A stretch of 24,580 nucleotides of DNA from a virus, in IMG/VR virus record IMGVR_UViG_3300028569_000166, positions 1 through 24,580 of that record; one strand, given 5' to 3'. Every line of letters starts with the position of its first letter. The first letter of the stretch is position 1. Positions 767-19,423 of this stretch are shown here, piece by piece. Below the pieces are notes generated by a model. That model saw only the letters and a program-made list of their open reading frames with translations. It searched no databases and was not told where the DNA came from. The position numbers and the translations under genes are program-made.

Positions 767-1050
767 TGGGTATAATAATTACAATTTGTGTTTTAGTAGT
801 ATTAGTCGTAATTCTAGGATTTACGACTTTTAACCTCCTGAAAAAAACTGAAAAACAAGAGGATATAGTAGCAGGATATTTAATATATCTTGATCGTATG
901 TCTCGCACAATAGAAATTTCAGATAAAAAATTAAAAGAACTTGATCGGGGCGGTGTATTCAAAGCAGATGATGAAGTTGGGGTTATATTTAAATCAATTC
1001 TCCAAATTCAAGACATTCTCAATGAGTTCAACCTTAGAAAATTCAATTAA
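766..1050 (+). CDS. Small membrane-anchored protein of unknown function
   Basis: This is a 94-residue protein whose residues 1-23 form a strongly hydrophobic helix (Ile/Val/Leu-rich) followed by Lys-Lys, typical of an N-terminal membrane anchor. The remainder (about 30-94) is charged and probably helical, facing the cytoplasm or periplasm. It starts in a TAATG overlap with the HD hydrolase gene. Its 3' end overlaps the sigma-factor start by 29 bases, so the three genes are probably transcribed together and translationally coupled. I do not recognise a family. A link with the sigma factor is suggested only by position. Confidence 0.6.
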   Translation: MGIIITICVLVVLVVILGFTTFNLLKKTEKQEDIVAGYLIYLDRMSRTIEISDKKLKELDRGGVFKADDEVGVIFKSILQIQDILNEFNLRKFN

Positions 1051-1756
1051 AACTTTAAAAAAACCAGCTAGTAAAAATTATTTTACTCAGGAAACAGAAG
1101 ATGCTATAGTACTATATAATAGTACTACGGACTTTATTTTAAAAAGCAAGATATATGAAGAAAAAATTCATTATGCTTTTTTTAAGTTAACCCAAAATAT
1201 AATCCATACTTTTAAATTTTATCATACTGAGGTAGAAAATTTAGAACATCTACAACATGAGATTATAGTGTTTTTATTATCAAAAATTCATTTATTTGAC
1301 CCTAGTAAAGGTGCTAAAGCATATTCTTACTTTGGTACTATTATTAAACGTTGGTGTATATTATATAATGATAAAAATTATAAAAGTAAAACTAGTAAAA
1401 CTTCTGTAGATGAATTATTAAAAGATGATTCATATTCTTATACATTAGAATCAACTGAATTAGATGATAAATTATCTTTTTTTATAAATAAGTATGTTGA
1501 TTTTGTTAGTATTAATATCTATATTATTTTTCCTAAAGGAAATGATGCTAAAATAGCAGATGCTGTATTAGAATTATTTAGGAAAAGAGACAATATTGAT
1601 GTTTTTAATAAAAAAGCATTATATATCTACATGCATGAGATGATCCCTGATGCTAAAACACCTAAAATTACCAAAATAGCCGGAGTATTATATGGTGTAT
1701 TTAAAAAGAATTATTTATTCTATTTAGAACAAGGTTATATAACCTTCCAATTCTAG
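1022..1756 (+). CDS. 55: Late-transcription sigma factor, T4 gp55-like
   Basis: The protein is 244 residues when started at the ATG at 1022; the longer frame from 941 would overlap the previous gene by 110 bases and adds unlikely sequence. Residues about 75-115 look like sigma region 2: a helical stretch ending in FDPSKGAKAYSYF and an IIKRW segment, the pattern seen in region 2 of ECF-like and gp55-like sigmas ('FDPxKG...F..Y....'). The C-terminal part (about 195-244) is a basic helical segment (AKTPKITKIAGVLY) that could form a helix-turn-helix. In T4, gp55 directs host RNA polymerase, with the sliding clamp, to late promoters for virion genes. The virion genes begin just downstream, which fits. 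The family call rests on region 2 and context; a divergent ECF-type sigma is the alternative. Confidence 0.72.
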   Translation: MSSTLENSIKTLKKPASKNYFTQETEDAIVLYNSTTDFILKSKIYEEKIHYAFFKLTQNIIHTFKFYHTEVENLEHLQHEIIVFLLSKIHLFDPSKGAKAYSYFGTIIKRWCILYNDKNYKSKTSKTSVDELLKDDSYSYTLESTELDDKLSFFINKYVDFVSINIYIIFPKGNDAKIADAVLELFRKRDNIDVFNKKALYIYMHEMIPDAKTPKITKIAGVLYGVFKKNYLFYLEQGYITFQF

Positions 1757-1764
1757 TAAATTCC

Positions 1765-1776
1765 TATATTTATAAT
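1765..1776 (+). promoter_or_regulatory. Putative phage late promoter (ATATTTATAAT motif, site 1)
   Basis: TATATTTATAAT followed by AAAACA lies in the 30-base gap after the sigma gene, with the ATG ten bases beyond the motif. The 17 bases 1766-1782 recur exactly at 8409-8425 in front of another gene. No TTG-like -35/-33 element is visible at the right distance, as expected for a gp55-type sigma. The motif also partly matches the Bacteroidota -7 box TAnnTTTG. Promoter function is inferred. Confidence 0.5.
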
Positions 1777-1786
1777 AAAACAACAT

Positions 1787-2125
1787 ATGAGCAATTTAGA
1801 ATCAAATATCTTTGGTAAGAAAAAATTCTCAGATATTCTTAAAGAAATTTACGAAAACCAAAAGAAAAAAGAAACACAAATATCAGCTTTAATAGGTGAA
1901 TTAAAACCACTTATTAATGATATTGGTGATGCTACTTTAATTGTTCCTTTAATTAAAGAATATATGGAGTTAGGTATTAAAAATGATGAGCAATTAATTA
2001 AAATGGCTACCATCATTCAACGTGCTTTAGCTTCAGGTAAATCTGAAGAAGAAGGATTTGGGATGACTGAAGAAGAAAAAACTCAACTATTATCTGAAGT
2101 TAAAAAATTTAATTCTAAAGATTAA
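1787..2125 (+). CDS. Small helical protein, probably virion- or assembly-related
   Basis: This 112-residue protein appears almost entirely alpha-helical and charged (EIYENQKKKETQ near the N-terminus, a Glu-rich tail). It has no signal peptide or membrane segment and no motif I recognise. It is the first gene after promoter-like site 1 and overlaps the spike gene by one base (TAATG), so it heads the hub/baseplate gene block and probably serves in tail or baseplate assembly. A chaperone or small structural role is possible. The start is the only sensible ATG; there is no Shine-Dalgarno box. Confidence 0.55.
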   Translation: MSNLESNIFGKKKFSDILKEIYENQKKKETQISALIGELKPLINDIGDATLIVPLIKEYMELGIKNDEQLIKMATIIQRALASGKSEEEGFGMTEEEKTQLLSEVKKFNSKD

Positions 2126-3366
2126 TGAGTAATTCCTACGGAAAATTTGGCTTCCCAGCCATGACTAACAATGCTTTAGGTAATAAAGCTACAAGTAAAC
2201 CTACTAAATCTACTAATAATTCTTTTATAGTTAGAGTAATTAATGTTAATCTTGCAACTGATAAAGGATTTACCCAAGTTGGAGTTATTAGTGGAGAACA
2301 AATCAGTAGTACAGGAATACCAAATGGTAAAGTTATATCTAATATATTTCCTTCTGATCCATATAGAAAAATAATTCCTTTAGTTAATGAATTTGTAAGA
2401 GTATCTTATATTATAGCCCCTAATACAATTGGTGGGCAATTTGTTTATAGCTCTCCACTTTCATTATATGGAATAGCTGCAGTGAATGTTAACTCATCAC
2501 CATCACCATTAAATAACCCTACCCCAAACTCACAAATTGTAAATTATCTCCAATCATTTACTGGTGCTATTAATATAGTTCCTAATGGTAATGTAGAATT
2601 AAATTATAATTCCCCTAATCAATTAGAAAATTCTACATTTATAGAACGTAGTAATATTCATCCTTTATTACCTTTTGAAGGAGATATTTTATATGAAGGA
2701 AGATGGGGAAATAGTATTAGATTTGGAAGTACAGTTAAATCTAAAAATTCTTGGTCTGAATCAGGTACAAATGGTGATCCTATTCTTATTTTAAGAAACG
2801 GACAAGATCCTAATTTAAATGATTTTGGGGCTGAACCTGTTATTGAAAATATAAAACAAGATTTAGCTTCAATTTATCTAACTTCTACTCAACAACTAAA
2901 AAATTTTAGCTTAACTAATGAAAATTTTATTTCATATACTACCCCACCTATAACTCCTGCTTCTTATACTAACCCCCAAATAACCCTAAATTCTAGTCGA
3001 ATTATTCTAAACGCTAACTCAGATAGCATTTTAATTAGTGGAGAAAAATCAGTTGGAATATCTTCAAATTCTAGTATTAATATAGAAGCTAAACAAATAT
3101 ATTTAGATGGAACTGATATTCGATTAGGAAGAAAAAATGCTTCTCAAGCAGTTTTAAAAGGAAACGATACTGTAGATTATTTAAAAATTCTAATTACTGA
3201 ATTAAAAAATTTAGCAACAGCTTTAAAAACTATACAGGATTGGCCATCTGGTACTCCTATTCCTAATGCCGTACTTTTAACTACTGCTAATATTGCTTTA
3301 AGTACTTTTGAAGAAGTTTATAATAATATAGATAGTATTAAATCTAATTTTGTAAAAACTATTTAA
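2125..3366 (+). CDS. Baseplate central spike protein, gp5/VgrG-like, without lysozyme domain
   Basis: The protein is 413 residues. Residues about 33-125 form a beta-rich N-terminal domain. Residues about 180-225 contain LLPFEGDILYEGRWGNSIRFGS, resembling the OB-fold/gp5 region that precedes a spike. Residues about 284-338 are a run of short beta repeats rich in Ser, Asn and Ile (ITLNSSRIILNAN, SILISGEKSVGIS, SINIEAKQIYLDG), the pattern of a gp5-type triple-stranded beta-helix needle. The C-terminus (about 345-413) is helical. T4 gp5 carries a lysozyme domain between the OB fold and the helix; no lysozyme catalytic pattern is seen here. The neighbouring DUF5675-like gene may supply the wall-active enzyme separately. 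It should form the membrane-piercing tip of the tail. Confidence 0.72.
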   Translation: MSNSYGKFGFPAMTNNALGNKATSKPTKSTNNSFIVRVINVNLATDKGFTQVGVISGEQISSTGIPNGKVISNIFPSDPYRKIIPLVNEFVRVSYIIAPNTIGGQFVYSSPLSLYGIAAVNVNSSPSPLNNPTPNSQIVNYLQSFTGAINIVPNGNVELNYNSPNQLENSTFIERSNIHPLLPFEGDILYEGRWGNSIRFGSTVKSKNSWSESGTNGDPILILRNGQDPNLNDFGAEPVIENIKQDLASIYLTSTQQLKNFSLTNENFISYTTPPITPASYTNPQITLNSSRIILNANSDSILISGEKSVGISSNSSINIEAKQIYLDGTDIRLGRKNASQAVLKGNDTVDYLKILITELKNLATALKTIQDWPSGTPIPNAVLLTTANIALSTFEEVYNNIDSIKSNFVKTI

Positions 3367-3367
3367 A

Positions 3368-4258
3368 ATGGCTTATACTTTTACTGACATTACTAATCAA
3401 CCAACCCCCATAGGAGGAAATTTAAATGGAAGACATATAAACTTTGATTCCCTCCCAGAATCAATCCAAATATTAATTTCTAATCCTAAATATGTAGTAT
3501 TAGTTAGAGAATCAACAACCACAACATCTAATGGTGGAAGAACTACTGATACTCTATGGTATAATAAACAAATTTTAGGGTTTGCTGTTGAAGATGCTAT
3601 TAGAAGTAAAAAAATAGCAGGAAAAACTGCTATTCCTGATACAATAGGAGATGCTAGTAAATTTAATGGTATTCCCTCTAATGTATATAATATTATTTTA
3701 AGTACTTATACAAATAGTGACTTTATTAGATCATCATTTTATAATGGAAACGGAATGAGGGTTAGTTCTAAAGGTGATCCTAGTGGAGGAAATATATATG
3801 AATCTGATGTTTTTACTAATGATGATTTTGCTACTGATAGAGGAAAAATAGCTTTTGATGGTGTTTTTATCCATCAAGGAACATCAGAAGCCTCTTCTGC
3901 AGGATGTATAATTTTTAGTAGAACCAAAAATTCAGATGGAACTGTTAAATTAGATATTAATGGGGTTCAACAATTAAATAAATATTTATCACAATCAGCA
4001 AAATTAATAGGTAAAGGTAAATTCCAACAGTTTGCTATTATTAACCTATGGGATCTTCCAGAACCACCAGTTAAAACTAATACATCAGGAACAGTAATTA
4101 ATAGTGAAACTAATCAATTAATTAAAGGAATAACAATTAAAGAAACAAATTCAAATATACCTATCTCTATAAACCCTACAGGTTCATTTATACCTACCCC
4201 TATACCTACCCCTATAAATTCTACAGGAACCCCAACAAATATAATTGAAGAATTTTAA
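3368..4258 (+). CDS. DUF5675-like (YkuD-reminiscent) enzyme, likely tail-associated, with C-terminal beta domain remnant
   Basis: The protein is 296 residues. The N-terminal ~230 residues follow the DUF5675 pattern: an LVRE strand (about 45-48), GFAVED (71-76), IAGKTAIP (83-90) and, after an insertion, GVFIHQG (165-171) followed by SSAGCI (176-181). The His169...Cys180 arrangement recalls the HG...S-x-G-C active site of YkuD-type L,D-transpeptidases; wall activity is inferred, as DUF5675 is not characterised as far as I know. Residues about 240-274 (GTVINSETNQLIKGITI...NPTGSF) look like the first half of a CarboxypepD_reg-like beta domain. A Pro/Thr repeat tail follows. It starts one base after the spike stop, so it probably acts with the spike at the baseplate tip. 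Confidence 0.65.
   Translation: MAYTFTDITNQPTPIGGNLNGRHINFDSLPESIQILISNPKYVVLVRESTTTTSNGGRTTDTLWYNKQILGFAVEDAIRSKKIAGKTAIPDTIGDASKFNGIPSNVYNIILSTYTNSDFIRSSFYNGNGMRVSSKGDPSGGNIYESDVFTNDDFATDRGKIAFDGVFIHQGTSEASSAGCIIFSRTKNSDGTVKLDINGVQQLNKYLSQSAKLIGKGKFQQFAIINLWDLPEPPVKTNTSGTVINSETNQLIKGITIKETNSNIPISINPTGSFIPTPIPTPINSTGTPTNIIEEF
4189..4216 (+). repeat. 12-bp tandem repeat (about 2.3 copies) in the C-terminal coding tail
   Basis: The unit TATACCTACCCC occurs twice in a row with a partial third copy (TATA). It encodes the Ile-Pro-Thr-Pro repeat at residues about 275-283 of the DUF5675-like protein. It keeps the frame and is a likely slippage site; changes in copy number would alter linker length only. 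Confidence 0.8.
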
Positions 4259-4296
4259 TAAATTACACCTATTAAAAACCTCCTAATCTATAAAAT

Positions 4297-5796
4297 ATGA
4301 ATGAAGGACAATTTAAAATTAATTTAACCTCATTAACTAATGGGGAAGGCATACCAGTAACATACGAATATAAAGATGCTGGAAGTAATTGGGAAATTGA
4401 GGCTTATCGTGATGGTAAATTATTAGCTACTTTTATAGCAAATAAAGGTATAAAAGGTTCAATAGAAGGTCTTGTTGGTGGGGCTCGAGTATATGATTTT
4501 TCTAAATTAGATGATGTAAAATTTTATTTTGATTTGCAAATTAACCCTCCAACTATAGACTTACCAGCGGGAATGGAGGATTTTGGATTTAGTAATACTA
4601 TTACTAATAAATACTATTTTGATGAAAATGGAATATTAAGAGAAGAATTAAATGATCTAGAAATACGTTTAAATAAAAAACTAGGAAGAGATAATAAAGT
4701 AAATGAACTATCAGCCTTTAAAATTAAATATCCCCCACAAACTTCTATTACCACTCCTCAAACTGCTTCTCTCCCTGCTATTGAAATTTCTGCCCCTGGA
4801 TATGAATCAGTAGAAATAATCCCATATAAAGGGGATGGTACTGTAAAAACTGATTTAGGAATAATTCCATTAATCCCTACAAATGTTGCTTTAGAAAAAG
4901 ATAAAATAAAAGCATCTCAACTAAACCCAGACCAAATTAAAGAACTTTCTAAACCTAATAAAAATTCAGATTATTTAATTCAAGAACAATTATCAAATCA
5001 AATTTTAGATTTAAAAAAAACTTTAATCCCCTCTGTATTAACTATGACAGCAGCTTTTGGTATAACTGGGGCTTCTACATTGATTTTAAAAAATCAAAAT
5101 AAAATTTTAGATGTTATTAATAATAAATCTAATTGTCCTTCTGAAGAAAAATTAACTAGTTTAATCAATAAAAAAAATAAATTAGTTAAACAATTAAACA
5201 ATACTTTAAAAGTAATAGATATTACTACTAAATCTTTAGGAATAACAACAACATTAATAACTTTATTAGATAAAATAATTTTAACCCAAAAAACAACTCT
5301 TTTAACTATACCTACATCTACTGGTATTACTGGAGTTCCTGGAACTCCTGTAGGAGTAATTACTGAAATTGATGATATAAAAGATGATAATAAAACATTA
5401 ATTAAAAAATTAACTCGTATTAGTGCTGGGGTAACATCAACTTTATTTTTATTAAAACAAACCCTTACCCAAGCTACTCAATTATTACAACTACTTGACC
5501 AACTTGTACAAAAATGTTACCCCGATACTGAACAAGAACAAATATCTATTGAATTAACTAACCTAACTAAAAACCAATCCTCCCAACAATCCCCAGTAGT
5601 TATAAATGTAAATGGATTTAAAATGAGTGTTGAAACTGAAACAACCGATAAACCATTAAAACGTAGAAGAGCAACAGCAACTAATAAACAAAATGTTGTA
5701 ATGTTAAGAGGAGAATGGTCATTTAGTTCAATTGATCAGATATTGATTGATGAACTTGTATTTTATATTGAACAAAATAATTTAAAAACAGATTAA
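4297..5796 (+). CDS. Large putative baseplate/hub protein with hydrophobic helices
   Basis: I do not recognise this 499-residue protein as a named family. Residues 1-125 are a beta-rich N-terminal domain. Residues about 160-195 (IEISAPGYESVEII...DLGIIPL) match the second half of a CarboxypepD_reg-like fold. Residues about 225-410 are long helices containing hydrophobic stretches (245-265 LIPSVLTMTAAFGITGAS, 315-330, 376-405), a pattern seen in tape-measure or membrane-inserting phage proteins. Residues about 435-499 form a conserved-looking C-terminal domain with a basic LKRRR segment and RGEWSFSSIDQILIDELVFY. It follows the DUF5675 gene after a 38-base gap with no clear promoter. Its position between spike and wedge genes argues for a hub or baseplate component, possibly released into the envelope. 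Confidence 0.55.
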   Translation: MNEGQFKINLTSLTNGEGIPVTYEYKDAGSNWEIEAYRDGKLLATFIANKGIKGSIEGLVGGARVYDFSKLDDVKFYFDLQINPPTIDLPAGMEDFGFSNTITNKYYFDENGILREELNDLEIRLNKKLGRDNKVNELSAFKIKYPPQTSITTPQTASLPAIEISAPGYESVEIIPYKGDGTVKTDLGIIPLIPTNVALEKDKIKASQLNPDQIKELSKPNKNSDYLIQEQLSNQILDLKKTLIPSVLTMTAAFGITGASTLILKNQNKILDVINNKSNCPSEEKLTSLINKKNKLVKQLNNTLKVIDITTKSLGITTTLITLLDKIILTQKTTLLTIPTSTGITGVPGTPVGVITEIDDIKDDNKTLIKKLTRISAGVTSTLFLLKQTLTQATQLLQLLDQLVQKCYPDTEQEQISIELTNLTKNQSSQQSPVVINVNGFKMSVETETTDKPLKRRRATATNKQNVVMLRGEWSFSSIDQILIDELVFYIEQNNLKTD

Positions 5797-5799
5797 CCT

Positions 5800-5811
5800 T
5801 ATATTTATAAT
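5800..5811 (+). promoter_or_regulatory. Putative phage late promoter (site 2), nearly leaderless
   Basis: TATATTTATAAT lies in the 18-base gap and ends three bases before the ATG at 5815. If the same -10-only geometry applies as at site 1, transcription would begin at or within a few bases of the start codon. The match to site 1 is exact over 12 bases. Function is inferred from recurrence and position. Confidence 0.5.
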
Positions 5812-5814
5812 CAT

Positions 5815-6153
5815 ATGAAAACTGACGGATTTAAAAAATTAATTAAAGAAGCTGTACGAGAAGTAATTCAAGAAGAATTAAAAGATATTCTTTTAGAAGC
5901 TATTCGTACTCCAAAAACAATTGTTAAAGAATCATATAACCCAGTATCTGAGCGAACATCTATACCATTTACTCAACCAACAATGGATTTTAGATCAAAA
6001 TATGCTGAAGTATTGGGAGAAACCGCTTTGAGTTTTACATCTCAAGACGCTCAAGTTCCATTTAGACCACAAGTAAGTGATCCTATAAATGGAAGTTTAG
6101 GTACTGGAGAAGTAGGAATGGATCAAATTATGGCATTAATGAATAGTAAATAA
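5815..6153 (+). CDS. Small virion-type protein with N-terminal amphipathic helix
   Basis: The protein is 112 residues. Residues about 5-28 form a strongly amphipathic helix (FKKLIKEAVREVIQEELKDI). The rest (about 35-112) is polar and poorly structured, with Pro, Ser and Gln, and ends in a short helix. The N-terminal helix resembles segments in the proteins encoded at 22777 and 23567, a style frequent in marine T4-like virion and prohead proteins. It is the first gene after promoter-like site 2 and overlaps gene 25 by one base (TAATG). It is probably a small structural or assembly factor of the baseplate wedge; no enzyme motif is present. No alternative downstream ATG would leave a comparable protein. 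Confidence 0.55.
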   Translation: MKTDGFKKLIKEAVREVIQEELKDILLEAIRTPKTIVKESYNPVSERTSIPFTQPTMDFRSKYAEVLGETALSFTSQDAQVPFRPQVSDPINGSLGTGEVGMDQIMALMNSK

Positions 6154-6557
6154 TGGCTTTTAGTCCTCAACAAATAGCACCTATTGATTTTGATGCAAGT
6201 ACTGCAGTTGGGGTAAATCTTCCTTTAAGTGGTCCTGCAGTTTTTATATCAAATTATCAAACTAAAGATGCTATAAAAAATAATTTAATTAATTTTTTTC
6301 TTACTAACCCTGGTGAAAGGCCATTAAATCCTTTATTTGGAGGGGGTTTACGAATTTTTATATTTGAACAAATTACATTAGATAATTTATCTTCTTTAAG
6401 AGAAGATGTTAATGATAAACTTCAAATATATTTCCCTAATATTATAGTTGAAAGTCTTACTGTAACTGGAGATAATGATAGCAATCAAATAAATGTAACT
6501 CTTAAATACAGTGTTTTAAATACAAATATTAACGATACCCTAAAAATCGAATTTTAA
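6153..6557 (+). CDS. 25: Baseplate wedge protein gp25 (gpW/gp25 family)
   Basis: The protein is 134 residues, close to the T4 gp25 length of 132. The family hallmark is clear: a helix (about 37-50), then the loop NPGERPLNPLFGGGL (52-66) with the conserved Glu-Arg-Pro, then a helix and a C-terminal beta sheet (FPNIIVESLTVT about 95-107). In contractile tails gp25 sits at the inner baseplate wedge, contacts the sheath and acts with gp6 as the assembly trigger. It begins in a one-base overlap with the previous gene and is followed two bases later by gene 6, the usual gpW-gpJ order. The call is firm. Confidence 0.9.
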   Translation: MAFSPQQIAPIDFDASTAVGVNLPLSGPAVFISNYQTKDAIKNNLINFFLTNPGERPLNPLFGGGLRIFIFEQITLDNLSSLREDVNDKLQIYFPNIIVESLTVTGDNDSNQINVTLKYSVLNTNINDTLKIEF

Positions 6558-6559
6558 AA

Positions 6560-8404
6560 ATGGCTACAACAAATAGAGATATAAAATATATTAATCGTGA
6601 TTTTTCAGATTTCAGACAACGATTAATTGAATTTAGTAAAACCTACTTCCCGCAAACATATAATGATTTCTCAGAAGCATCCCCAGGTATGATGTTTATG
6701 GAGCAAGTATCATATGTTGGTGATGTTTTAAGTTTTTATTTAGATAACCAATTCCAAGAAACTTTTATTCAATATGCCCAACAAATTAATAATATATATG
6801 AATTAGCATATATGTTTGGATATAAACCAAAAGTAACAGGAGCAGCTCAAGTAACAATAGATTTTTATCAACAATTACCAGCTAAACAAATAGGAGTAGA
6901 TTATTTTCCAGATTATGATTATGCTTTAACTATTAATGAAAATACTACAATATCTTCAATTAATGGAATTTCTTTTTTAATCCAAGATAAAATTGATTTT
7001 TCAATATCTAGTTCTCAAGACCCAACAGAAGTAACTATATATCAAATTTCTAATAATACTCCACAGTATTATCTTTTAAAGAAAAGCAGAAATGCTATTT
7101 CATCTACAATTAATACAACTACTTTTAACTTTACTGATCCTATCCCATATAATACTGTTACTTTAAGTGTTAATGGATTTATTAAAATTTTAGATGTAAT
7201 AGATTCTGATGGAAATATATGGTATGAGGTAGATCATTTAGGACAAGAAATGGTATTAAATCCTATTAAAAATACTAATATTAATGATCCTAATAAAACA
7301 GATGATACTCCTTATTTATTAAGACTTAAAAAAGTAGCTAGACGATTTGCTACTAGAATAATATCTCCAACATTAATTACTATGCAATTTGGGGTAGGAT
7401 CTCCATCTGACATAACTGAAGAAATAACACCTAATGCTGATAATGTTGGTTTGGGTTTACCTTTTAAACAAGATAAATTAACAACAGCTTATTCTCCTGT
7501 TAATTTTTTATATACAAGTACATATGGTATAGCTCCTTCAAATACTACTTTAACTGTAAGATATTTAACTGGAGGTGGAGTATCATCAAATGTAAGTGTT
7601 AATACTTTAACCCAATTAAATACTACTAACACTAAATTTAATAATATTAATTTAAATCCTATAACTGCTAATTATATTTTTAATTCATTAGCAACTAATA
7701 ATGATGAAGCTGCTAGCGGAGGAAATTCAGGAGATACCCCAGAACAAATACGTCAAAATTCTCTTGCATTTGTAGCTTCCCAACAACGCTCAGTAACAGC
7801 TGATGATTATTTAATTAGAGCTTTAAGTATGCCCTCAAACTATGGCTCAGTTACTAAAGCATATATTGAACAACCTAAATTAACCGATAATCAAGTTTCT
7901 ACTATTGAAACTTTAAATTTATATGTTCTATCCCAAAATGCAGATGGGCAATTAGATTATGCTACTAAAACTCTAAAAAATAATTTAAGAACATATATTT
8001 CCCAATATAGAATAATTGGAGATAATATTGAAATTAGAGATGCGTTTATAATAAACATAGCTGTTGATTTTGAAATTATAATTCTTCCTGAATATAATAA
8101 TAATAAAGTATTACTAAGTTGTATCTCAGCATTACAAAATTATTTTAATATTTCTAATTGGCAAATTAACCAACCTATTCTATTAAAAGATCTTTACATT
8201 TTATTAGATAAAATTAAAGGAGTTCAAACGGTTAAAAATATTTCTATAATTAATAAAGCAGGAACTACTTTAGGTTACTCTCAATATGCTTATGATATAA
8301 CTGGAGCAATTCAAAATCAAGTAATATATCCTTCATTAGACCCAAGTATATTTGAAATAAAATATCCTAATCAAGATATTAAAGGTAAAGTAGTTCCTTT
8401 ATAA
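6560..8404 (+). CDS. 6: Baseplate wedge protein gp6 (Baseplate_J / gpJ-like)
   Basis: The protein is 614 residues; T4 gp6 is 660. Near the N-terminus, INRDFSDFRQRL (11-22) and DFSEASPGMMFMEQVSYVGD (36-55) match the conserved opening of T4-like gp6. In the second half, residues about 388-440 (GDTPEQIRQNSLAFVASQQR followed by SVTADDYLIRA) match the Baseplate_J motif, in which a string of substituted residues ends in 'xVTxxDY'. The C-terminal ~110 residues are a beta/alpha domain likely to bind the next wedge. gp6 dimers form the continuous inner ring of the baseplate and interact with gp25 and gp7/gpI, whose genes flank it here. The start is the only ATG near the preceding stop. Confidence 0.88.
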   Translation: MATTNRDIKYINRDFSDFRQRLIEFSKTYFPQTYNDFSEASPGMMFMEQVSYVGDVLSFYLDNQFQETFIQYAQQINNIYELAYMFGYKPKVTGAAQVTIDFYQQLPAKQIGVDYFPDYDYALTINENTTISSINGISFLIQDKIDFSISSSQDPTEVTIYQISNNTPQYYLLKKSRNAISSTINTTTFNFTDPIPYNTVTLSVNGFIKILDVIDSDGNIWYEVDHLGQEMVLNPIKNTNINDPNKTDDTPYLLRLKKVARRFATRIISPTLITMQFGVGSPSDITEEITPNADNVGLGLPFKQDKLTTAYSPVNFLYTSTYGIAPSNTTLTVRYLTGGGVSSNVSVNTLTQLNTTNTKFNNINLNPITANYIFNSLATNNDEAASGGNSGDTPEQIRQNSLAFVASQQRSVTADDYLIRALSMPSNYGSVTKAYIEQPKLTDNQVSTIETLNLYVLSQNADGQLDYATKTLKNNLRTYISQYRIIGDNIEIRDAFIINIAVDFEIIILPEYNNNKVLLSCISALQNYFNISNWQINQPILLKDLYILLDKIKGVQTVKNISIINKAGTTLGYSQYAYDITGAIQNQVIYPSLDPSIFEIKYPNQDIKGKVVPL

Positions 8405-8408
8405 CATC

Positions 8409-8419
8409 ATATTTATAAT
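8409..8419 (+). promoter_or_regulatory. Putative phage late promoter (site 3)
   Basis: ATATTTATAAT, followed by AAAACA, lies in the 27-base gap after gene 6 and 12 bases before the ATG at 8432. The 17 bases 8409-8425 are identical to 1766-1782. No -35 element is apparent. As at site 1, a short leader of roughly 5-10 bases would result. Confidence 0.5.
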
Positions 8420-8431
8420 AAAACATTATAA

Positions 8432-9631
8432 ATGGCTGTTTATAAGATATTCCCTACTCAAGATACTACTCTATATTCCTCATACCCTGTAATGAACACA
8501 GGTTTAGATGCTATATTAGAAATATCTAATAAATTAAATTCTTCAAATACTCCTTTTATATCTAGATATCTTGTTCAATTTGATGATCAAGAAATTCAAG
8601 ATATTATAACTAATAAAATTCAAGGAAATCTTTACGATATATACCTTAAAAATTTTATAGCTGAAGCTCAAGGAGTTAATCTCAATATAATCCTAGAAAT
8701 CTTACCAGTAGCACAATCTTGGAATAATGGTACTGGATATACTTTAGCTGCACCCCAAGTGACTGATGGAGCATCATGGATATACTCTAATTATAGCGGC
8801 TCAGGACCTTGGAGTCCTTTTGGATCATATTCAACTGTAAGTAGTTCTTTTAATTATACTAGTTCTTTTAATTTAAATTATGGACCCGCTGGGGGAGGTA
8901 ATTGGTTTTATGATACTTCAGGAAGTTTATATGTTGTATTTGGATATGTCCAATCTGGATATGTTGGAAACTCAGCTTTCCATGGGTCAAACACAATCAA
9001 TTTCCAATTACGAGACAATAAAGATATTGAAGCTAATGTAACTAAAACAGTTAAAGCTTGGTTTTCAGGATCTATCCCAAATTATGGATTTATAGTTAAA
9101 TTAACTGGATCCCAAGAATTTATACCTGATAAAAATATTCAACCTATATTTAAATATTATAGTGTTGATACTAATACTATATATCCTCCATGTTTAGAAT
9201 TTAGATGGAGAGATTATTCTACAGTCTTAACAGGATCAGCCACAGGAAGTATTATAAATACAGTTGATTTAAAAATGTCTTTATCTGAAAATCCAGGAGA
9301 ATTTTATCCAACTAGTATTAATAGATTTTATATAAATGTAAGTCCATTATATCCACCTAGAACTTACCAAACATCTTCATTATTTACTACTTTAAATTAT
9401 TTACCAACTACTTCATATTATGCTATAAAAGACTTGGCTACCAATGAATTTGTTGTTAGCTTTGATAACCTATACACTCAAATTAGTTCTGATATAAATG
9501 GGAATTATTTTGATGTTTATATGAGTGGATTAGAACCTGAAAGATATTATCAAATCTTAATTAAATCTCATATTAATGGCTCAACTATTATATATGATGA
9601 TAATTATTATTTTAAAGTTATAAATGGATGA
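8432..9631 (+). CDS. Virion structural protein with DNRLRE-like beta sandwich
   Basis: The protein is 399 residues and beta-rich. The start IFPTQDTTLYSSYPVMNTG (6-24) and the segment around residues 90-120 (ILPVAQSWNNGTGY, then a Gly-Ala-Ser-Trp turn) follow the DNRLRE/CBM96-like pattern 'P..DTT....P..N.G' ... 'P....W..G....'. Residues about 105-175 are a Gly/Ser/Tyr-rich insertion and the last third is a separate beta domain. Such domains occur in phage tail and baseplate proteins and in secreted bacterial proteins as adhesive or scaffolding modules. It lies between gp6 and the gp7-like gene, so it is probably a peripheral baseplate component or a fibre attachment protein. It overlaps the next gene by four bases (ATGA). 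The domain call is moderate. Confidence 0.6.
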   Translation: MAVYKIFPTQDTTLYSSYPVMNTGLDAILEISNKLNSSNTPFISRYLVQFDDQEIQDIITNKIQGNLYDIYLKNFIAEAQGVNLNIILEILPVAQSWNNGTGYTLAAPQVTDGASWIYSNYSGSGPWSPFGSYSTVSSSFNYTSSFNLNYGPAGGGNWFYDTSGSLYVVFGYVQSGYVGNSAFHGSNTINFQLRDNKDIEANVTKTVKAWFSGSIPNYGFIVKLTGSQEFIPDKNIQPIFKYYSVDTNTIYPPCLEFRWRDYSTVLTGSATGSIINTVDLKMSLSENPGEFYPTSINRFYINVSPLYPPRTYQTSSLFTTLNYLPTTSYYAIKDLATNEFVVSFDNLYTQISSDINGNYFDVYMSGLEPERYYQILIKSHINGSTIIYDDNYYFKVING

Positions 9632-9990
9632 GTGAAAATATAAATTTACAAAAACAAGTATATAATAAAGGAGATTATTCTAAAGTTATTGATACTTCTT
9701 TTACCCAATTAGGAGTAAAAAATATCCAACAAGAAATCGAAATCCAACCAACAGTAAATGATTTTTTTAATCTTTACAATGATTTATTCTATGATATCCC
9801 AGAATTAGGAAATACTAATTCACATGAATATTTAATTAAAAAAAGTAGTGAGTATATAAATTTTGAATTTAATCAAGAAATAATTTTAACACTTCAAGAT
9901 GAAATAGCTCAATTAAGAATTGATTTACTTAATACTCAAAAGCAAGTAGTAGAGTTACAAACAGGAACAATACTAGCTAACCCTCAATAA
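9628..9990 (+). CDS. Small baseplate-region protein with C-terminal coiled coil
   Basis: The protein is 120 residues. Residues about 45-80 (TVNDFFNLYNDLFYDIPELG then NSHEYLIKKSSEYI) form a compact helical region of a type I associate with T4-like marine phage virion proteins. Residues about 82-113 are a heptad-like coiled coil (IILTLQDEIAQLRIDLLN). It has no enzyme motif, signal or membrane segment. It starts in an ATGA overlap with the preceding gene and overlaps the giant gene by one base, so synthesis of the three is probably coupled. It is likely an oligomeric connector between wedge proteins. Confidence 0.6.
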   Translation: MSENINLQKQVYNKGDYSKVIDTSFTQLGVKNIQQEIEIQPTVNDFFNLYNDLFYDIPELGNTNSHEYLIKKSSEYINFEFNQEIILTLQDEIAQLRIDLLNTQKQVVELQTGTILANPQ

Positions 9991-12900
9991 TGGCCGCAGA
10001 AATTACCCAAATAGATATTGAAAATTTTACTTCACAAACTTATGAAGTACAAGATACAAATTTAATTCCTTCATTTGAAATTAATACATCTTTAACTTCT
10101 AGCAGTTATATTGAATTATTTATTTACGATAATAACCAAAATGTCTTAATATCTGAATATAATTTTTCCCAATATACAGTTCTAAATGACGGACAATCTG
10201 CAGGAAATAATAATGATATTTCTCAAATAGAAATAAACCCTGAAGAAATCCTCCTTAATTATGATTTTTTTCAAGGAGAATATGTTACATATTTTAATTT
10301 TTTAAATAAAAAAATAGGTTCTTATTTACAACAACTATATATATCTGAAATTTCATCTGATAGAACTGAAATAAGATTAAATAGTACTTCTTTAACAATT
10401 ATTGATTTAATCGAGCAAACAACAAACTTTGTTCAAGAAAGAGAAGATAGTTCTTATTTTTTAGATTTTTATCTTAATTTTGGAGATAATCAACTTATTA
10501 TAGCTAATAATATTCAATTAGATAATCAAGATCCAATAAATCCAACAGTTTTAGTTAAATTATATGAACCATTACCTGTTGATTTTATTTTAAATTCTAC
10601 ATTATGGATTATTACATCTATTGAAGAATCAATAGCTTATAAAGTAACATACCCTAATAATGTATTCATTATTAATGATACTATACCAGTTAATGGACCT
10701 AATTTTAATTTAAATATTAAAGATCAAGTAAATAATTCAACTTTAGAATTATCTTATATTGATTTAATATCTACTTCTTTAACCAGTTCCCAAACCCAAT
10801 TAAATAGTTTACTCGAAGAAAAAGAAATCGATATTAATATTGATTATTCTAATTTTTATAATTTTGTACATTTTAGCTCGGCTAAAACTCGTTTAGAAAA
10901 TTTCTATTATAAATTAGAATTAATCGAACAGTATTCATCTTTAATTTTATCATTAAATAATGTTGTAAATTCACCTTCTCAAATTAGTAGCAGTAAAATT
11001 ACATATGAATCAAGTATAAATAACATTATAACTAATTTTGATAATTACGAATATTATTTATATTATAATAGTAGTTCTTATGCTTGGCCTAAATCTAACA
11101 TAGAACCTCCTTATCAATTATATTCAACTATTAATCCTATATCTTTAACTTGGTTAGGTAGTGATAATATTAATAGTCCATATTATGGAGGTTTAATTTT
11201 ATCAGCTTCATCATTTGATAATAATAATCAAGATAATTTACTTTATACTATCCCTGAATATCTTAGAGATGATCCTGCTAATCAACAATATGAATTATTT
11301 ATTGAAATGGTAGGCCAATTTTATGATAATATTTGGATTTATTATAAAGACGTTACTGAAAAATACAATGCAGATAACCGCTTAGACTATGGTGTATCAA
11401 AAGATATAGTAGCGGATGCTATTAGAGAATTTGGTATTAAATTATATCAAAACAATTTTTCTAATGAGGATTTATACACAGCATTTTTAGGTTTAACTCC
11501 TGGAGGTGGATTATTTCCATTTTCTAATATTACTGGCTCACTCCCAACCCCTAGTGGATTTGAATATATTGATACTTTAATATCAGCCTCTAATGATTAT
11601 ATGCCGTTAGATGATGTAAATAAATCGTTATATAAACGCATTTATCATAATCTACCATACCTACTCAAGTCGAAAGGTACATTACCCGGATTACGCGCTT
11701 TGATTACCTCATATGGTATTCCTGATACTATATTAAGGATTAATGAATATGGTGGTAAAGATAAAATAAACTCAAATGACTGGGATTTCTGGCAAGATAC
11801 ATTTAATTATACCTTTACTACCCCAGCTAATAATTTTATTTCATCTGACTGGAATGTTAACCCAACTTGGAATACTTTAAATGGAGTACCTGACTCAATA
11901 TCATTTAGATTTAAAACCACAGGTCTCCCCCAAAATAACATCCCATATTCTCAAAGTCTATGGAATTTAGATAATGACAGAGCATTCTTAACCCTTAAAT
12001 ATACAGGATCAGGATATACAAGTGGTTCATATTTAGGATCAACTATTGATCCTTATTATCAATATGCTCATTTAGAGCTTTATCCTGGATATAATAATAC
12101 TCCTACAATATCTGCTAGTATTTATCTTCCATTTTTTGATGGTGGATGGTGGTCTGTAATGATTAATAGAGTACCAAGTACTTCTAGTGGTAATAGTGAT
12201 TTTACTTTATATGCTGGAAATAAAATATATGAAGGTGGAGATAATGGAACTTTACTTGGATTTTATTCATCCTCAACTGTTACCGTTGATGATACTGATT
12301 GGATTAATATTGGAACTTCTAATTTTGCATTAGGGGGGCATATTATAAACGGAGAATTATATGATTACTTCTCAGGATCACTTCAAGAGATTAGATATTT
12401 TAAATCTCCTTTAAATGAAACGGTATTTAAGGATTATATAATGAATCCTTATTCAATTGAAGGAAATACTATTAACTCATCACCTGATGAACTTATATTT
12501 AGAGCATCATTAGGGGGTGAATTATACACAGGATCAAATTCAATCCATCCTAAAGTAACAGGTTCTTGGACACCGGTAAATTCTTTTAATTTAAATAGTA
12601 ATTTTAATTTTTTCCAAACCCCTACTTTTATTCCAAATACAGAATATTTCTTTTATGATCAACCTGTAATAGGAATTAAAAATGCTATATCTGATAAAAT
12701 TAGATTAGAAGATAATATTTTACCCGCAGGTGATACTTTATCTCCATTTAAGATTATTTCCCAACAAACTAATGCTAGCCAAAGTTATACAGCTAATACT
12801 AATTTACTTGAAGTAGCATTTTCACCCCAAGATGAAATTAATGATGATATTACATCTCAAATTGGATACTTCAATATAGGAGAATATATAGGTGACCCTA

Positions 12901-15900
12901 GAGAAAGATTCACCCCAGATCAATCATACCCATCTTTAAATAAATTTAGAGATGATTATTTTCAAAAATACATTAAAAATTATGATTTAGTTGATTTTAT
13001 TAGACTAATTAAATTTTTTGATAACTCATTATTTAAAATGATTAAAGACTTTGTACCTGCTCGTACAAGTCTAGCTTCAGGTATTGTTATTAAACAACAT
13101 ATTCTTGAAAGAAATAAATATCCTCAACCTAAAGTTGATAATCATTCAACTATAGCTTATTATAAACTCAACCCATATAATACTCCTATTATTGTTCAAG
13201 ATATTTCAATATCTGGAACTGTAGCACCCCAATGGAATGACTACCAACCAGGTACTATAGAAAATTTTAGTGGAGGAACTGGAGGAACATTTGAACCATT
13301 TAATGGAATTAATACTTCTCCTTATGGTCCTAATGGTATTGGGCCTGAAAATATTTATTTTATTACTCAAAGTTGGACAAAAACAACTTCCACTACATTA
13401 GGACCAGTAACTATATTACATGATGCTCAAGATGAATTTTATGATGGAGAATTTAGTGGATCTATTGTAATTGTTACAACACAAAGTTTATTTGCTCCTT
13501 ACCCTTCTACATTTGAATCTATCCCTTATAAATTAGTTCAATATTATAGTACTTCTTCTACTGAAGAAAATATATTTAAAAATAATTTTTTAGACCCAAA
13601 TACAGCTCCTAGTAATGGTGAAATTTTATTCTTCAATGAACAAATTATTGGAATTAACCCCCCATTATTTGAAACTAAATATTTAAAAATAGCTAAAGTA
13701 GATTGTAATGGAGTAGACCAATCAAATCCTTTAGGACAAATTACTGACCTAAAAGTTTTTATCCCAATAGCTAATTATTATGCTCCATATGCAATATCTA
13801 ATATAACAGAATACTCTACTTATTATTTTTATACGGCTAATGAAACTGAATTTTTCACAGGCTCAATATGGCCTAATCAAATTTTAGATTATACTACTAC
13901 AGCTTCAATTACTACTTTACGACAAATACCATTTGCTAATTCTTACATAATAAATTCATGGGGTACTAAAACAGGAGATATTCCTAATTATTTTGATCTT
14001 AGTTCTGGGATTTATACTTTAAATAATACTCCTAATACTAAATTAACTATATCTGCTTCTATTGATACTTTTGGATATCTTCCAATAGGATCTACAGGTA
14101 AAGCTAGTTTAATACTTTTAAGAAATAATTCTGAAACTGCTTTAACTACTCAAACATATAATTTAAATGGATCTGATACTACTTTATTATCAACATCTAT
14201 CTATCCTATCCAACAAGATCAAATATATATTAAAATTACCCGTGGACTTTATTCTACAGGTATACTTGAAATTTTAAATACCCAATTACATCTAACACAA
14301 AGTAACCTCCCAATTATATCAAATTGCAACCCAGTAATTATAGAACCTTATTTAACAACACCTAATTATTATAATAGTGATTATAACCCATTATTAAATA
14401 ATATTGATACAGATAGATTAAGTACTATATATGAAGATATTGAATATTACCCTGGGATATTAACCCCTATAAACTTTGAACTTCTAATAAGTGGAAGTGC
14501 TTTAAAAGCAGCAATTCAAGACTCTAATTATACTACAAAACGCCATATTATACCAAGGTATGAAGGTAGTAAATCTACATCACAATTATTAAATACTTGG
14601 TCTCCACCTAACACTATAATCGGATATTCAGATCAAGGAACATATGGTCTTATTCCAACAGTAGAAAGCTTAAAAACCTCAGTTGCTTATGCGGTAGGTA
14701 TTGGGGGTTGGCCCCCTGAAAGAATGAATGCCTCAGCAGTAATGATTAAATATTTAATAAACTCTGATGGTAGTGTAACTATACCTAATATAACTGAGAA
14801 TTCATTAGCAGATGTTCAAAATAATTTTATTACTAATGAAAGAATTATCATCCAATCTACTAATATGGGATCTGGGGAAGCAATCCAATACAGAAATATA
14901 ATTAGAGGAGGATCAAGAATTGAACCTATTTTATATAATCAAATAGGAAAAATGCCTGGGGGAACTTTTGCTAATAGTATTGATTTAACTGATAATGGGA
15001 TTACAGGAAGTGTAGTAAATAACTTTCAAGCTCAATTAAGACCTTCTAGTTATACAATAAATACATTAGGTACTTCTTATTCTGAAGTTATATACGATAC
15101 TATTTCTTACCAAGGCAATGCTGCTACATTCTCACCCCAAACTATTTCAGGATATACATCATATAGATATAGAGTTAATACATCTTTAGTAAGTGAAGGT
15201 TCTGGTTTAGATGTGATAGCTGATATGAATTTTACCGATACTAATCCACAATATGGGGCAACATCAAAAGTTAACTGGAGAATAGTTAGATTAAGAGGAG
15301 GTATTAAAACAGTTTTAATTTCTAACGCTTCATGGCTTGTTGTAGGTTTTATATCTGGACAAGGAGTTAATTTTACCACTGTTGATAATGCTCAAAATAG
15401 CATCTATGTTTCAATCCCTTACAATGACCTTGTAAATAATGATGAATTATTCGTTGAAGTAGAATGGAATGGTACCGGAAATGTAGTAATAGAATCCAAT
15501 TCTAAATTTATTATTAACCAAACAGTTATCCCTAACTCTGCTATATCTACTAATGGATTATGGATTTCTTCCTCAGGAAACATCACATCAGAAATTAATT
15601 TATCTGGTTTTTCTGGAACAAATATAATATATACTCCATCATCATCATTAGTAACATATTATGATAATCCATATGTATTTCAAAAAGATATTTCAGGTTC
15701 AGGATTTAACCCAATAGCATTACCTTGGTCAATTAAATATGGTGATGAATTTAGATTTGAAGGATGGGAAAATAGAGTATTTCAAGTTGCTAAAGCTGAA
15801 ATAATAAATAATCCAAATATACCTGGGTCTCCAATATTAGCAGTTGAATTAAATCAACCTATCCCTATTTCAGGCTCTATGAATCTTGATCAATTTTTAA

Positions 15901-16061
15901 TTAGAAGATATATTGATGATGCTACTCAAATTTTAATGGAAGGATTTAGACCTATTAATTCCCAAGGACCATATATTATAAGACCTGAATATGTAGTTTC
16001 TGAATTAAATAAAAACGTTGATGAATTTATATTAGAACTTACACAGAAAGGTTTGATTTAA
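9990..16061 (+). CDS. Giant baseplate wedge/virion protein with gpI(gp7)-like and LamG-like regions
   Basis: At 2023 residues this is the largest gene in the window; T4 gp7 is 1032. Residues 1-400 are beta- and Asn/Ser-rich. Residues about 420-590 are helical (YELFIEMVGQFYDNIWIYYK, later LPYLLKSKGTLPGLRALITS) and resemble phage tail protein I (P2 gpI), the counterpart of gp7; the KGT-x-x-G motif is typical. Residues about 610-830 look like a LamG/concanavalin-like domain (GWWSVMINR, LQEIRYFKSPLN). Residues about 1000-1050 (FVPARTSLASGIVIKQHILE) form another segment I associate with related phage proteins. The C-terminal ~60 residues are helical. Gene order gp25-gp6-this protein supports a gp7 equivalent. 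The LamG module may bind glycans or connect fibres. Confidence 0.68.
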   Translation: MAAEITQIDIENFTSQTYEVQDTNLIPSFEINTSLTSSSYIELFIYDNNQNVLISEYNFSQYTVLNDGQSAGNNNDISQIEINPEEILLNYDFFQGEYVTYFNFLNKKIGSYLQQLYISEISSDRTEIRLNSTSLTIIDLIEQTTNFVQEREDSSYFLDFYLNFGDNQLIIANNIQLDNQDPINPTVLVKLYEPLPVDFILNSTLWIITSIEESIAYKVTYPNNVFIINDTIPVNGPNFNLNIKDQVNNSTLELSYIDLISTSLTSSQTQLNSLLEEKEIDINIDYSNFYNFVHFSSAKTRLENFYYKLELIEQYSSLILSLNNVVNSPSQISSSKITYESSINNIITNFDNYEYYLYYNSSSYAWPKSNIEPPYQLYSTINPISLTWLGSDNINSPYYGGLILSASSFDNNNQDNLLYTIPEYLRDDPANQQYELFIEMVGQFYDNIWIYYKDVTEKYNADNRLDYGVSKDIVADAIREFGIKLYQNNFSNEDLYTAFLGLTPGGGLFPFSNITGSLPTPSGFEYIDTLISASNDYMPLDDVNKSLYKRIYHNLPYLLKSKGTLPGLRALITSYGIPDTILRINEYGGKDKINSNDWDFWQDTFNYTFTTPANNFISSDWNVNPTWNTLNGVPDSISFRFKTTGLPQNNIPYSQSLWNLDNDRAFLTLKYTGSGYTSGSYLGSTIDPYYQYAHLELYPGYNNTPTISASIYLPFFDGGWWSVMINRVPSTSSGNSDFTLYAGNKIYEGGDNGTLLGFYSSSTVTVDDTDWINIGTSNFALGGHIINGELYDYFSGSLQEIRYFKSPLNETVFKDYIMNPYSIEGNTINSSPDELIFRASLGGELYTGSNSIHPKVTGSWTPVNSFNLNSNFNFFQTPTFIPNTEYFFYDQPVIGIKNAISDKIRLEDNILPAGDTLSPFKIISQQTNASQSYTANTNLLEVAFSPQDEINDDITSQIGYFNIGEYIGDPRERFTPDQSYPSLNKFRDDYFQKYIKNYDLVDFIRLIKFFDNSLFKMIKDFVPARTSLASGIVIKQHILERNKYPQPKVDNHSTIAYYKLNPYNTPIIVQDISISGTVAPQWNDYQPGTIENFSGGTGGTFEPFNGINTSPYGPNGIGPENIYFITQSWTKTTSTTLGPVTILHDAQDEFYDGEFSGSIVIVTTQSLFAPYPSTFESIPYKLVQYYSTSSTEENIFKNNFLDPNTAPSNGEILFFNEQIIGINPPLFETKYLKIAKVDCNGVDQSNPLGQITDLKVFIPIANYYAPYAISNITEYSTYYFYTANETEFFTGSIWPNQILDYTTTASITTLRQIPFANSYIINSWGTKTGDIPNYFDLSSGIYTLNNTPNTKLTISASIDTFGYLPIGSTGKASLILLRNNSETALTTQTYNLNGSDTTLLSTSIYPIQQDQIYIKITRGLYSTGILEILNTQLHLTQSNLPIISNCNPVIIEPYLTTPNYYNSDYNPLLNNIDTDRLSTIYEDIEYYPGILTPINFELLISGSALKAAIQDSNYTTKRHIIPRYEGSKSTSQLLNTWSPPNTIIGYSDQGTYGLIPTVESLKTSVAYAVGIGGWPPERMNASAVMIKYLINSDGSVTIPNITENSLADVQNNFITNERIIIQSTNMGSGEAIQYRNIIRGGSRIEPILYNQIGKMPGGTFANSIDLTDNGITGSVVNNFQAQLRPSSYTINTLGTSYSEVIYDTISYQGNAATFSPQTISGYTSYRYRVNTSLVSEGSGLDVIADMNFTDTNPQYGATSKVNWRIVRLRGGIKTVLISNASWLVVGFISGQGVNFTTVDNAQNSIYVSIPYNDLVNNDELFVEVEWNGTGNVVIESNSKFIINQTVIPNSAISTNGLWISSSGNITSEINLSGFSGTNIIYTPSSSLVTYYDNPYVFQKDISGSGFNPIALPWSIKYGDEFRFEGWENRVFQVAKAEIINNPNIPGSPILAVELNQPIPISGSMNLDQFLIRRYIDDATQILMEGFRPINSQGPYIIRPEYVVSELNKNVDEFILELTQKGLI

Positions 16062-16063
16062 TA

Positions 16064-16090
16064 ATATTTATTAGTATAATACATTATAAT
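16064..16090 (+). promoter_or_regulatory. AT-rich promoter-like gap with degenerate motif
   Basis: The 40-base gap before the gene at 16102 holds ATATTTAT (16064-16071) and two TATAAT hexamers (16075-16080 and 16085-16090). TATAAT and ATTATA (16083-16088) form a 6-base inverted repeat with a 2-base spacer. It is a looser relative of sites 1-3. In such AT-rich DNA these matches could be chance. Confidence 0.3.
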
Positions 16091-16101
16091 AGAAATAAAA
16101 C

Positions 16102-16761
16102 ATGGGATATTTAAATAATCAAGTCGTAACAGTTGACGCGATTTTAACAACTAAAGGTAGAGAATTATTAGCCAAAAATGATGGTTCATTCCGTATTACT
16201 CAATTTGCTTTAGCTGATGATGAAATTGATTATACTTTGTATAATCCTAACCACCCTTCAGGATCCGCTTTTTATGGAGAAGCAATTCAAAATATGCCTC
16301 TACTAGAAGCATTTCCTATCGAGACCCAAATTATGAAATATAAATTAGCTACATTACCTCGCGGAACAGCTAAACTACCAGTATTAAATTTAGGATATGC
16401 AGCAGTAACATTACAACAAGGAACTTCTTTAGCTATTACTCCTCAAACACTCAATTACCTAGGAAATAACCAAACATATGAAACTAGTGGATATGCTTGC
16501 ACTATTTCAGATGTAAGATTATTAAATACATTTACCGGTTTAGGAATTAATACTGAAACTGCTATATCTGCTAATACTGCAGCTACTACAACATTAGGTA
16601 CAAATGTTTCTAAAACTATTATTGGAACTCAATTTAATTTAAGAGGAACAACTATAAATACACTTTTTGGTACTAATACTCAAATCAACGGAACATTAAC
16701 TTTTGTTGGATTAGATAGTGGTGCTAGATTAACTATTCCTCTTACTATTAATTACGTATAA
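16102..16761 (+). CDS. Conserved T4-like virion structural protein (function unknown)
   Basis: The protein is 219 residues. The N-terminal segment VDAILTTKGRELLAKNDGSF followed by TQFALADDEIDY (about 11-45) is a pattern I associate with structural proteins of marine T4-like phages. The rest is beta-rich with Thr, Asn and Leu, consistent with a fibre or surface protein. It has no catalytic motif, signal or membrane segment. It is the first gene after the wedge block and precedes two paralogous structural genes, with which it probably forms a fibre or tail-surface group. The start follows an A-rich stretch without a Shine-Dalgarno box. Confidence 0.62.
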   Translation: MGYLNNQVVTVDAILTTKGRELLAKNDGSFRITQFALADDEIDYTLYNPNHPSGSAFYGEAIQNMPLLEAFPIETQIMKYKLATLPRGTAKLPVLNLGYAAVTLQQGTSLAITPQTLNYLGNNQTYETSGYACTISDVRLLNTFTGLGINTETAISANTAATTTLGTNVSKTIIGTQFNLRGTTINTLFGTNTQINGTLTFVGLDSGARLTIPLTINYV

Positions 16762-18973: not shown

Positions 18974-19423
18974 ATGGGAAGTTGGATATATAAAGGTAAA
19001 ATAATAAATGATATTAATGATTTTAAACCTGAAACATTTGGTTTTATTTATGTTACAACTCATATTCCAACTGGAAAAAAATATTTAGGTAAAAAATCTC
19101 TACATCATAATATAAAGAAAAAATTAGGTAAAAAAGAATTAGCTGAACAACCCATAACTAGAGGTCGAACAGCAACTACAAAACAAATTATTAAAGAATC
19201 TGATTGGAAAACATATTACGGATCTGAAGAATTTATAAAACAACAAATCAAATTAGGTAAAAAAGAAGAATTTACTAGAGAAATTATTCAATTAGTAAAT
19301 AATAAAAAATTACTTACTTATTTTGAATGTAAGCATCTCTTTAATTTAGATGTATTAGAATCTGATAATTGGTTAAATTCAAATATTTTAGGTAAATTTT
19401 TTAAAAAAGACTTTACTATTTAA
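18974..19423 (+). CDS. SegE-like GIY-YIG endonuclease family protein
   Basis: The protein is 149 residues. The N-terminal core FGFIYVTTHIPTGKKYLGKK (about 22-41) has the shape of a GIY-YIG domain in its SegE-like variant, with a loosely matching F-x-Y...K-Y-L-G pair. It is followed by basic residues, DWKTYYGSEEFI (about 76-87) and a Glu-containing stretch FECKHLF. The family comprises phage homing endonucleases and related repair nucleases that cut DNA near target genes. It stands alone between virion genes and the primase gene, only five bases after the previous stop, as expected for a small inserted homing gene. Whether the active site is intact needs alignment. Confidence 0.6.
   Translation: MGSWIYKGKIINDINDFKPETFGFIYVTTHIPTGKKYLGKKSLHHNIKKKLGKKELAEQPITRGRTATTKQIIKESDWKTYYGSEEFIKQQIKLGKKEEFTREIIQLVNNKKLLTYFECKHLFNLDVLESDNWLNSNILGKFFKKDFTI

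Follow-up and report, generated by a model that had tools for sequence, protein, structure and literature searches.

Gene layout and copies of the motif

The window, that is, the whole stretch of DNA analysed, spans a virus record of 24,580 bases from end to end, and the + strand carries nearly all genes. Its products include a sigma-like protein and one with an HD domain, and it also has a baseplate module and a region of primase/exonuclease genes (Table 1). The ATG at 1022 is used as the start of the sigma-like gene as it agrees with the relatives; the list of open reading frames has a TTG at 941. Genes for gp25-like and wedge proteins come after the gene behind site 2, and positions 9990-16061 in the baseplate/tail module hold an ORF of 2023 aa that matched no Pfam family. 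The best PHROG label for the product of 18974-19423, and likewise for its immuto homologue, is 'NAD synthetase'. The window product also matches homing endonuclease families, and the label looks wrong.

The window was compared with G001, a 166 kb relative that looks complete and whose end sequence recurs near its start, with 7 other relatives, with the cultured Flavobacterium phage immuto (host Flavobacterium sp. LMO8) and with Microcystis phage Mel-JY01. Genes were called simply as ORFs, and the related genomes are not independent of each other.

A sequence-only reading of the window had pointed to a recurrent word in short gaps just before genes and to a 17-base identity between two of its copies. 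Both observations hold. The word ATATTTATAAT is found at 1766-1776, 5801-5811 and 8409-8419, with 3 copies on the + strand and 0 on the - strand, and bases 1766-1782 and 8409-8425 are identical at 17/17 positions (ATATTTATAATAAAACA). The gaps between the end of TATTTATAAT and the ATG are 10, 3 and 12 nt at sites 1-3. Site 4, which was absent from that reading, is a degenerate copy upstream of the gene at 16102. By itself the count of ATATTTATAAT in the window is only mildly surprising, with 3 exact copies against 0.66 expected and 3 of 100 shuffles reaching 3. One-mismatch copies in the window are not in excess (12 vs 12.9 expected). All 3 exact copies, however, fall within the 1.4% of the window that lies upstream of starts (p=3e-6); the signal is placement and conservation, not raw count. 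The window genes starting at 2125, 3368, 6153, 6560, 9628 and 9990 belong to the same gene runs and start without the motif, therefore the motif is not needed for translation.

Table 1. Coordinates of the genes and motif sites discussed in the text (window positions unless another genome is named)
Feature	Position	Strand	Remarks
Candidate gp55-like phage sigma factor	1022..1756	+	244 aa; directly upstream of site 1
Putative late promoter core ATATTTATAA, site 1	1766..1775	+	exact motif; extended block 1766-1782
First gene of unit behind site 1	1787..2125	+	112 aa, no assigned function; orthologue of immuto gp117
Putative late promoter core ATATTTATAA, site 2	5801..5810	+	ATG starts 5 nt past TATTTATA
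Gene behind site 2	5815..6153	+	112 aa, no assigned function; orthologue of immuto gp114
Putative late promoter core ATATTTATAA, site 3	8409..8418	+	extended block 8409-8425
Gene behind site 3	8432..9631	+	399 aa virion-module protein, no assigned function; homologue of immuto gp111
Putative degenerate late promoter ATATTTATTAG, site 4	16064..16074	+	conserved; TATTTATT to ATG 29 nt
Gene behind site 4	16102..16761	+	219 aa; orthologue of immuto gp107
J-domain-like gene	L092:2131-2679 (G001); L097:8172-8729 (G003)	minority strand	motif both ways in gap
TTG-N20-TATATTTAGR examples	immuto (L121/L124) record positions 71038, 71308, 76244		

Conservation of the motif in relatives

Downstream of the sigma gene, [AC]TATTTAT is present in the gap of 70/70 distinct relative contigs, with sigma proteins that are 57-91% identical to that of immuto. 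The gap before the 5815 gene was compared in 42 relatives. Every distinct one whose sequence extends into this gap has ATATTTATAA unchanged and exactly 4 bases before the ATG, and the eleventh base, the last T of ATATTTATAAT, is free. Site 3 lies in the gap that follows the gene for the 614-aa wedge protein, where nearly all of 80 relatives keep [CT]ATATTTATAATAAAA and the neighbouring bases vary. The orthologue of the gene behind site 1 has the motif in immuto and in 7 uncultured relatives. For site 4, nearly all relatives listed have ATATTTATTA or near forms before the gene at 16102 and immuto gp107 is preceded by an exact ATATTTATAAT; the site 4 word is absent in the distant huge phage L123. 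The bases kept in the homologous gaps of relatives give [A/C]TATTTATAA as the true core, and nnAA often comes after it. The T at the head of TATATTTATAAT (positions 1765 and 5800), which had been counted as part of the motif, is not conserved among relatives.

Placement, orientation and motif discovery

The earlier suggestion that copies upstream of starts be weighed against copies inside genes has a clear outcome: the copies cluster in the 40 nt before starts rather than within genes. This zone makes up about 2-3% of the sequence in G001, immuto and G005. It holds 22 of the 23 coding-strand copies of TATTTATAA in G001 (2.6% of the sequence, p=4e-34), 15 of 17 in immuto and 18 of 19 in G005. 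Unsupervised motif discovery yielded TATTTATAA when run on the immuto virion modules, on the outer parts of G001 and on the whole of G005, with scores well above those of shuffled controls. The same procedure applied to the T4 late region gave a word containing TAAATA with a score of 48.5 vs 33-44 for the controls, which makes it a weak positive control. In Mel-JY01 the motif word is enriched, but unsupervised discovery did not yield it. Mel-JY01 (L128-L130, L122) has a sigma homologue and carries ATATTTAT in gaps with a strand bias of 12:0, and several of these stand 33-36 nt before the ATG, a wider spacing than in the other phages.

The orientation of the motif follows the orientation of the genes. 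In G001 and G003, the short gap between two divergent genes (50 bp and 39 bp, respectively) has copies of the motif in both directions. One gene of the pair, on the minority strand, is small and J-domain-like (HPDK), and the other is a virion-module gene. One minus-strand match in G008 has no called gene downstream. Single cases in which a strong terminator, the motif and an ATG follow each other directly are found at G001 58835, G001 162461 and G003 79281; intrinsic terminators before the motif are not enriched overall (12/124 vs 33/275). The first reading had seen no -35 or -33 box, and this agrees with the comparison between genomes. In immuto, G003 and G005 (22-27 sites per genome), the stretch from -45 to -2 ahead of the motif has no strongly conserved position, and G001 has just a weak T at -7.

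Genes behind the motif and a second promoter class

In immuto, 19/28 motif genes lie in virion modules compared with 40/187 other genes (p=1.8e-6), where the module borders were drawn by the author of this analysis according to the product annotations in the immuto record and 9 motif genes fall outside the modules as drawn. Tail sheath, tail tube, tape-measure and baseplate-module genes that have the motif in immuto are matched by orthologues with the motif in G001 or G005. A pair of neighbouring tail-sheath-like genes, both with a motif copy of their own, is present in G001 (6017 and 7830) and in G005 (76063 and 78218; coding-strand coordinates). The proposal that the motif may be the late promoter of this phage lineage thus gains support from its placement upstream of starts and from the virion modules, and expression from it would be late.

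In other parts of immuto and G001, unsupervised discovery gave a different word. The second class in immuto is TTG-N20-TATATTTAGR, which has an exact 20-nt spacer at 17/17 sites outside the virion modules. None of the 17 genes with this host-like promoter is in a virion module, as opposed to the 19/28 motif genes (p=4e-6). The word is close to the Bacteroidota -33/-7 promoter (PMC6847099), and the class is probably early and host-read. A related class, TTTCGTATATT, was observed in 27 gaps of G001 at 60-105 kb in coding-strand orientation (L086-L089 region). It often has GGAATA 18 nt upstream, and the stop codon of the gene before seems to fall on GGAATAG/A.

The candidate sigma factor

The sequence-only reading had placed a gp55-type sigma factor just upstream of the first site, and structure prediction gives this protein a sigma-region-2 fold. 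Z scores against sigma region 2 reach 10.1 for residues 20-120 of the predicted fold, and the fold-match rows listed are sigma factors or RNA polymerase complexes, except for one cross-linking model titled RPSH-RPOB. The region 2 fold is clear in the predicted model, which is of medium confidence (mean pLDDT 69) and for which the Foldseek E-values are not significant (best 0.19). A helical C-terminal part of about 100 residues is predicted beyond region 2. Pfam Sigma70_r2 is matched by 19/27 members of the sigma family with a best E of 0.003, below the cut-off, and T4 gp55 is likewise under the cut-off for this family. Weak matches to phrog_234, the late sigma factor, were obtained for 12/27 members (E 0.008 in immuto). 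The candidate and T4 gp55 align collinearly for about 115 residues, and hhalign to gp55 gave an E of 0.076. A PDB sequence search with the sigma alignment returned just one unrelated enzyme (E 0.21), and the Mel-JY01 sigma, used as the query of a scan, gave no relatives. From the region 2 fold matches and the weak profile matches, the 1022-1756 protein is the natural candidate for reading the motif. The RNA polymerase beta-prime domain PF04997 was not found in G001, immuto and Mel-JY01 and the controls were positive. The search for a T7-type RNA polymerase (PF00940) gave no match, but no control gave a match either and it is uninformative.

Spacing to the ATG and the predicted start

The distance between TATTTATA and the ATG was compiled for 117 sites in 50 gene families, with some paralogues merged into one family. 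Distances of 3, 4 and 5 nt are found in 3, 5 and 8 families, giving 16 family entries at 3-5 nt compared with 1 at 0-2 nt and 2 at 6-8 nt, and a broad second group begins at 9 nt. Other A/T words in the same gaps have a flat background without the peak at 3-5 nt. The distance from the motif to the ATG ranges overall from 1 to 36 nt. In F. johnsoniae promoters, a spacer of 4-5 nt separates the 8-nt box from +1 (PMC6847099), and in T4 the distance from the 8-bp late box to the start downstream is about one helical turn (PMC2988020). The short-spacing group is predicted to be leaderless because the ATG follows TATTTATA by 3-5 nt, where +1 should fall. In the window, +1 of site 1 is expected near 1779-1780 with a leader of about 7-8 nt, the site 2 mRNA is predicted to be leaderless, and a leader of about 9-10 nt is expected for site 3.

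Two other registers were tried and rejected. The TATAAT end of the motif does not serve as a Pribnow box, as its last T is variable and an ATG 1-3 nt later leaves no room for a start. The T4 octamer in a TATAAWWA register is ruled out by the same variable T and lack of room.

Proposed mechanism and alternatives

It is highly probable that [A/C]TATTTATAA(nnAA) is a -10-like late promoter element, read by a gp55-like sigma, of a large clade of T4-like phages, most of them uncultured. The hosts of the clade are Flavobacterium and probably other Bacteroidota. The host core RNA polymerase together with the phage sigma would melt the octamer TATTTATA without need of a -33 box, and RNA would start about 4-6 nt downstream of the octamer. 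At about a quarter of the sites the ATG would be exactly at the start, giving leaderless late mRNAs, and most other sites would give a leader of about 5-20 nt. A further proposal is tentative and may well not hold: gp55-type late transcription would operate without a T4-type clamp, the promoter would be fused to the start codon and many late mRNAs would begin at AUG, in phages of Bacteroidota whose host mRNAs mostly have leaders.

The sequence-only reading had considered the motif closer to the Bacteroidota -7 box TAnnTTTG, and a host-type sigma-A promoter used without a phage sigma is favoured by the similarity of ATATTT to that box and by some immuto sites in which the two words are joined (TTTCGTATATTTATAATAA at 128591). 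The closeness does not hold among relatives, where the first T of the box is not conserved and its G is A. There is also no TTG at -33, and the promoters that do look host-like form the distinct class outside the virion modules, which makes a host sigma-A promoter unlikely. An RNA-level signal, either a translation-initiation enhancer or the binding site of a regulator on late mRNAs, is slightly less likely still. The motif is always near an ATG, and adenines before the ATG are known to stimulate initiation in Flavobacterium (PMC6847099), but a signal of this kind is difficult to reconcile with genes that start without the motif in the same runs, with an ATG distance that varies so widely despite a strictly conserved core, with copies in either orientation in short gaps between divergent genes, where two promoters have to fit, and, in single cases, with a motif directly after a terminator. 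Chance, as a product of AT-rich gaps and shared ancestry, would fit the window counts, which alone are just mildly high. It is refuted by the placement, by motif discovery in which shuffled controls scored far lower, and by the 70/70 conservation across divergent sigma proteins with variable flanks; the strand asymmetry and the strength of the enrichment also argue against it. The phage late promoter is the preferred reading.

In the open literature searched (on TATTTATA, Mel-JY01 and immuto; subscription journals mostly uncovered) there is no earlier account of this promoter, and no mapped promoters for this phage clade were found. The motif would allow late genes to be read off in this aquatic phage clade, a common one with hundreds of contigs that match its sigma. 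It also makes the co-evolution of phage sigma factors and promoters testable and predicts leaderless late mRNAs in a phylum without Shine-Dalgarno signals.

Comparison with known promoters

The Bacteroidota sigma-A promoter (-33 TTG / -7 TAnnTTTG) has an AT-rich -7 region in common with the clade motif, and the core polymerase is probably the same for both. However, the leading T of the -7 box is variable in the clade motif and its G is replaced by A, and the -33 TTG is absent before the clade motif and present in the separate host-like class.

T4 late promoters resemble the clade motif in that one -10-like octamer stands before virion genes without a -35 box and that the phage encodes a divergent sigma, in the clade a candidate one. 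The start is expected at a similar distance from the octamer. The consensus of the window and the clade is TATTTATA and not the T4 octamer TATAAATA read by gp55. The difference noted in the first reading stands for the two central bases, AA in T4 and TT in the clade, but 6/8 positions agree on the coding strand. The statement that TATAAATA occurs on the opposite strand only does not extend to several relatives, which carry TATTTATAAATA and thereby TATAAATA on the coding strand. Unlike T4, the clade sigma has the extra predicted helical C-terminal part and many predicted leaders have zero length. T4 has a gp45-type clamp, whereas the clamp family PF02916, found in T4, was not found in G001, immuto and Mel-JY01, where divergent clamps could escape the search.

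A late consensus has been derived in silico for the T4-related phages KVP40, 44RR and S-PM2, with a variant in Aeh1, and these octamers are highly similar to the T4 consensus or vary at -13/-12 (PMC2988020). The clade octamer has its change in the centre, unlike the variation at -13/-12, and like the octamers of KVP40, 44RR, S-PM2 and Aeh1 it can be seen as a lineage-specific form of one octamer.
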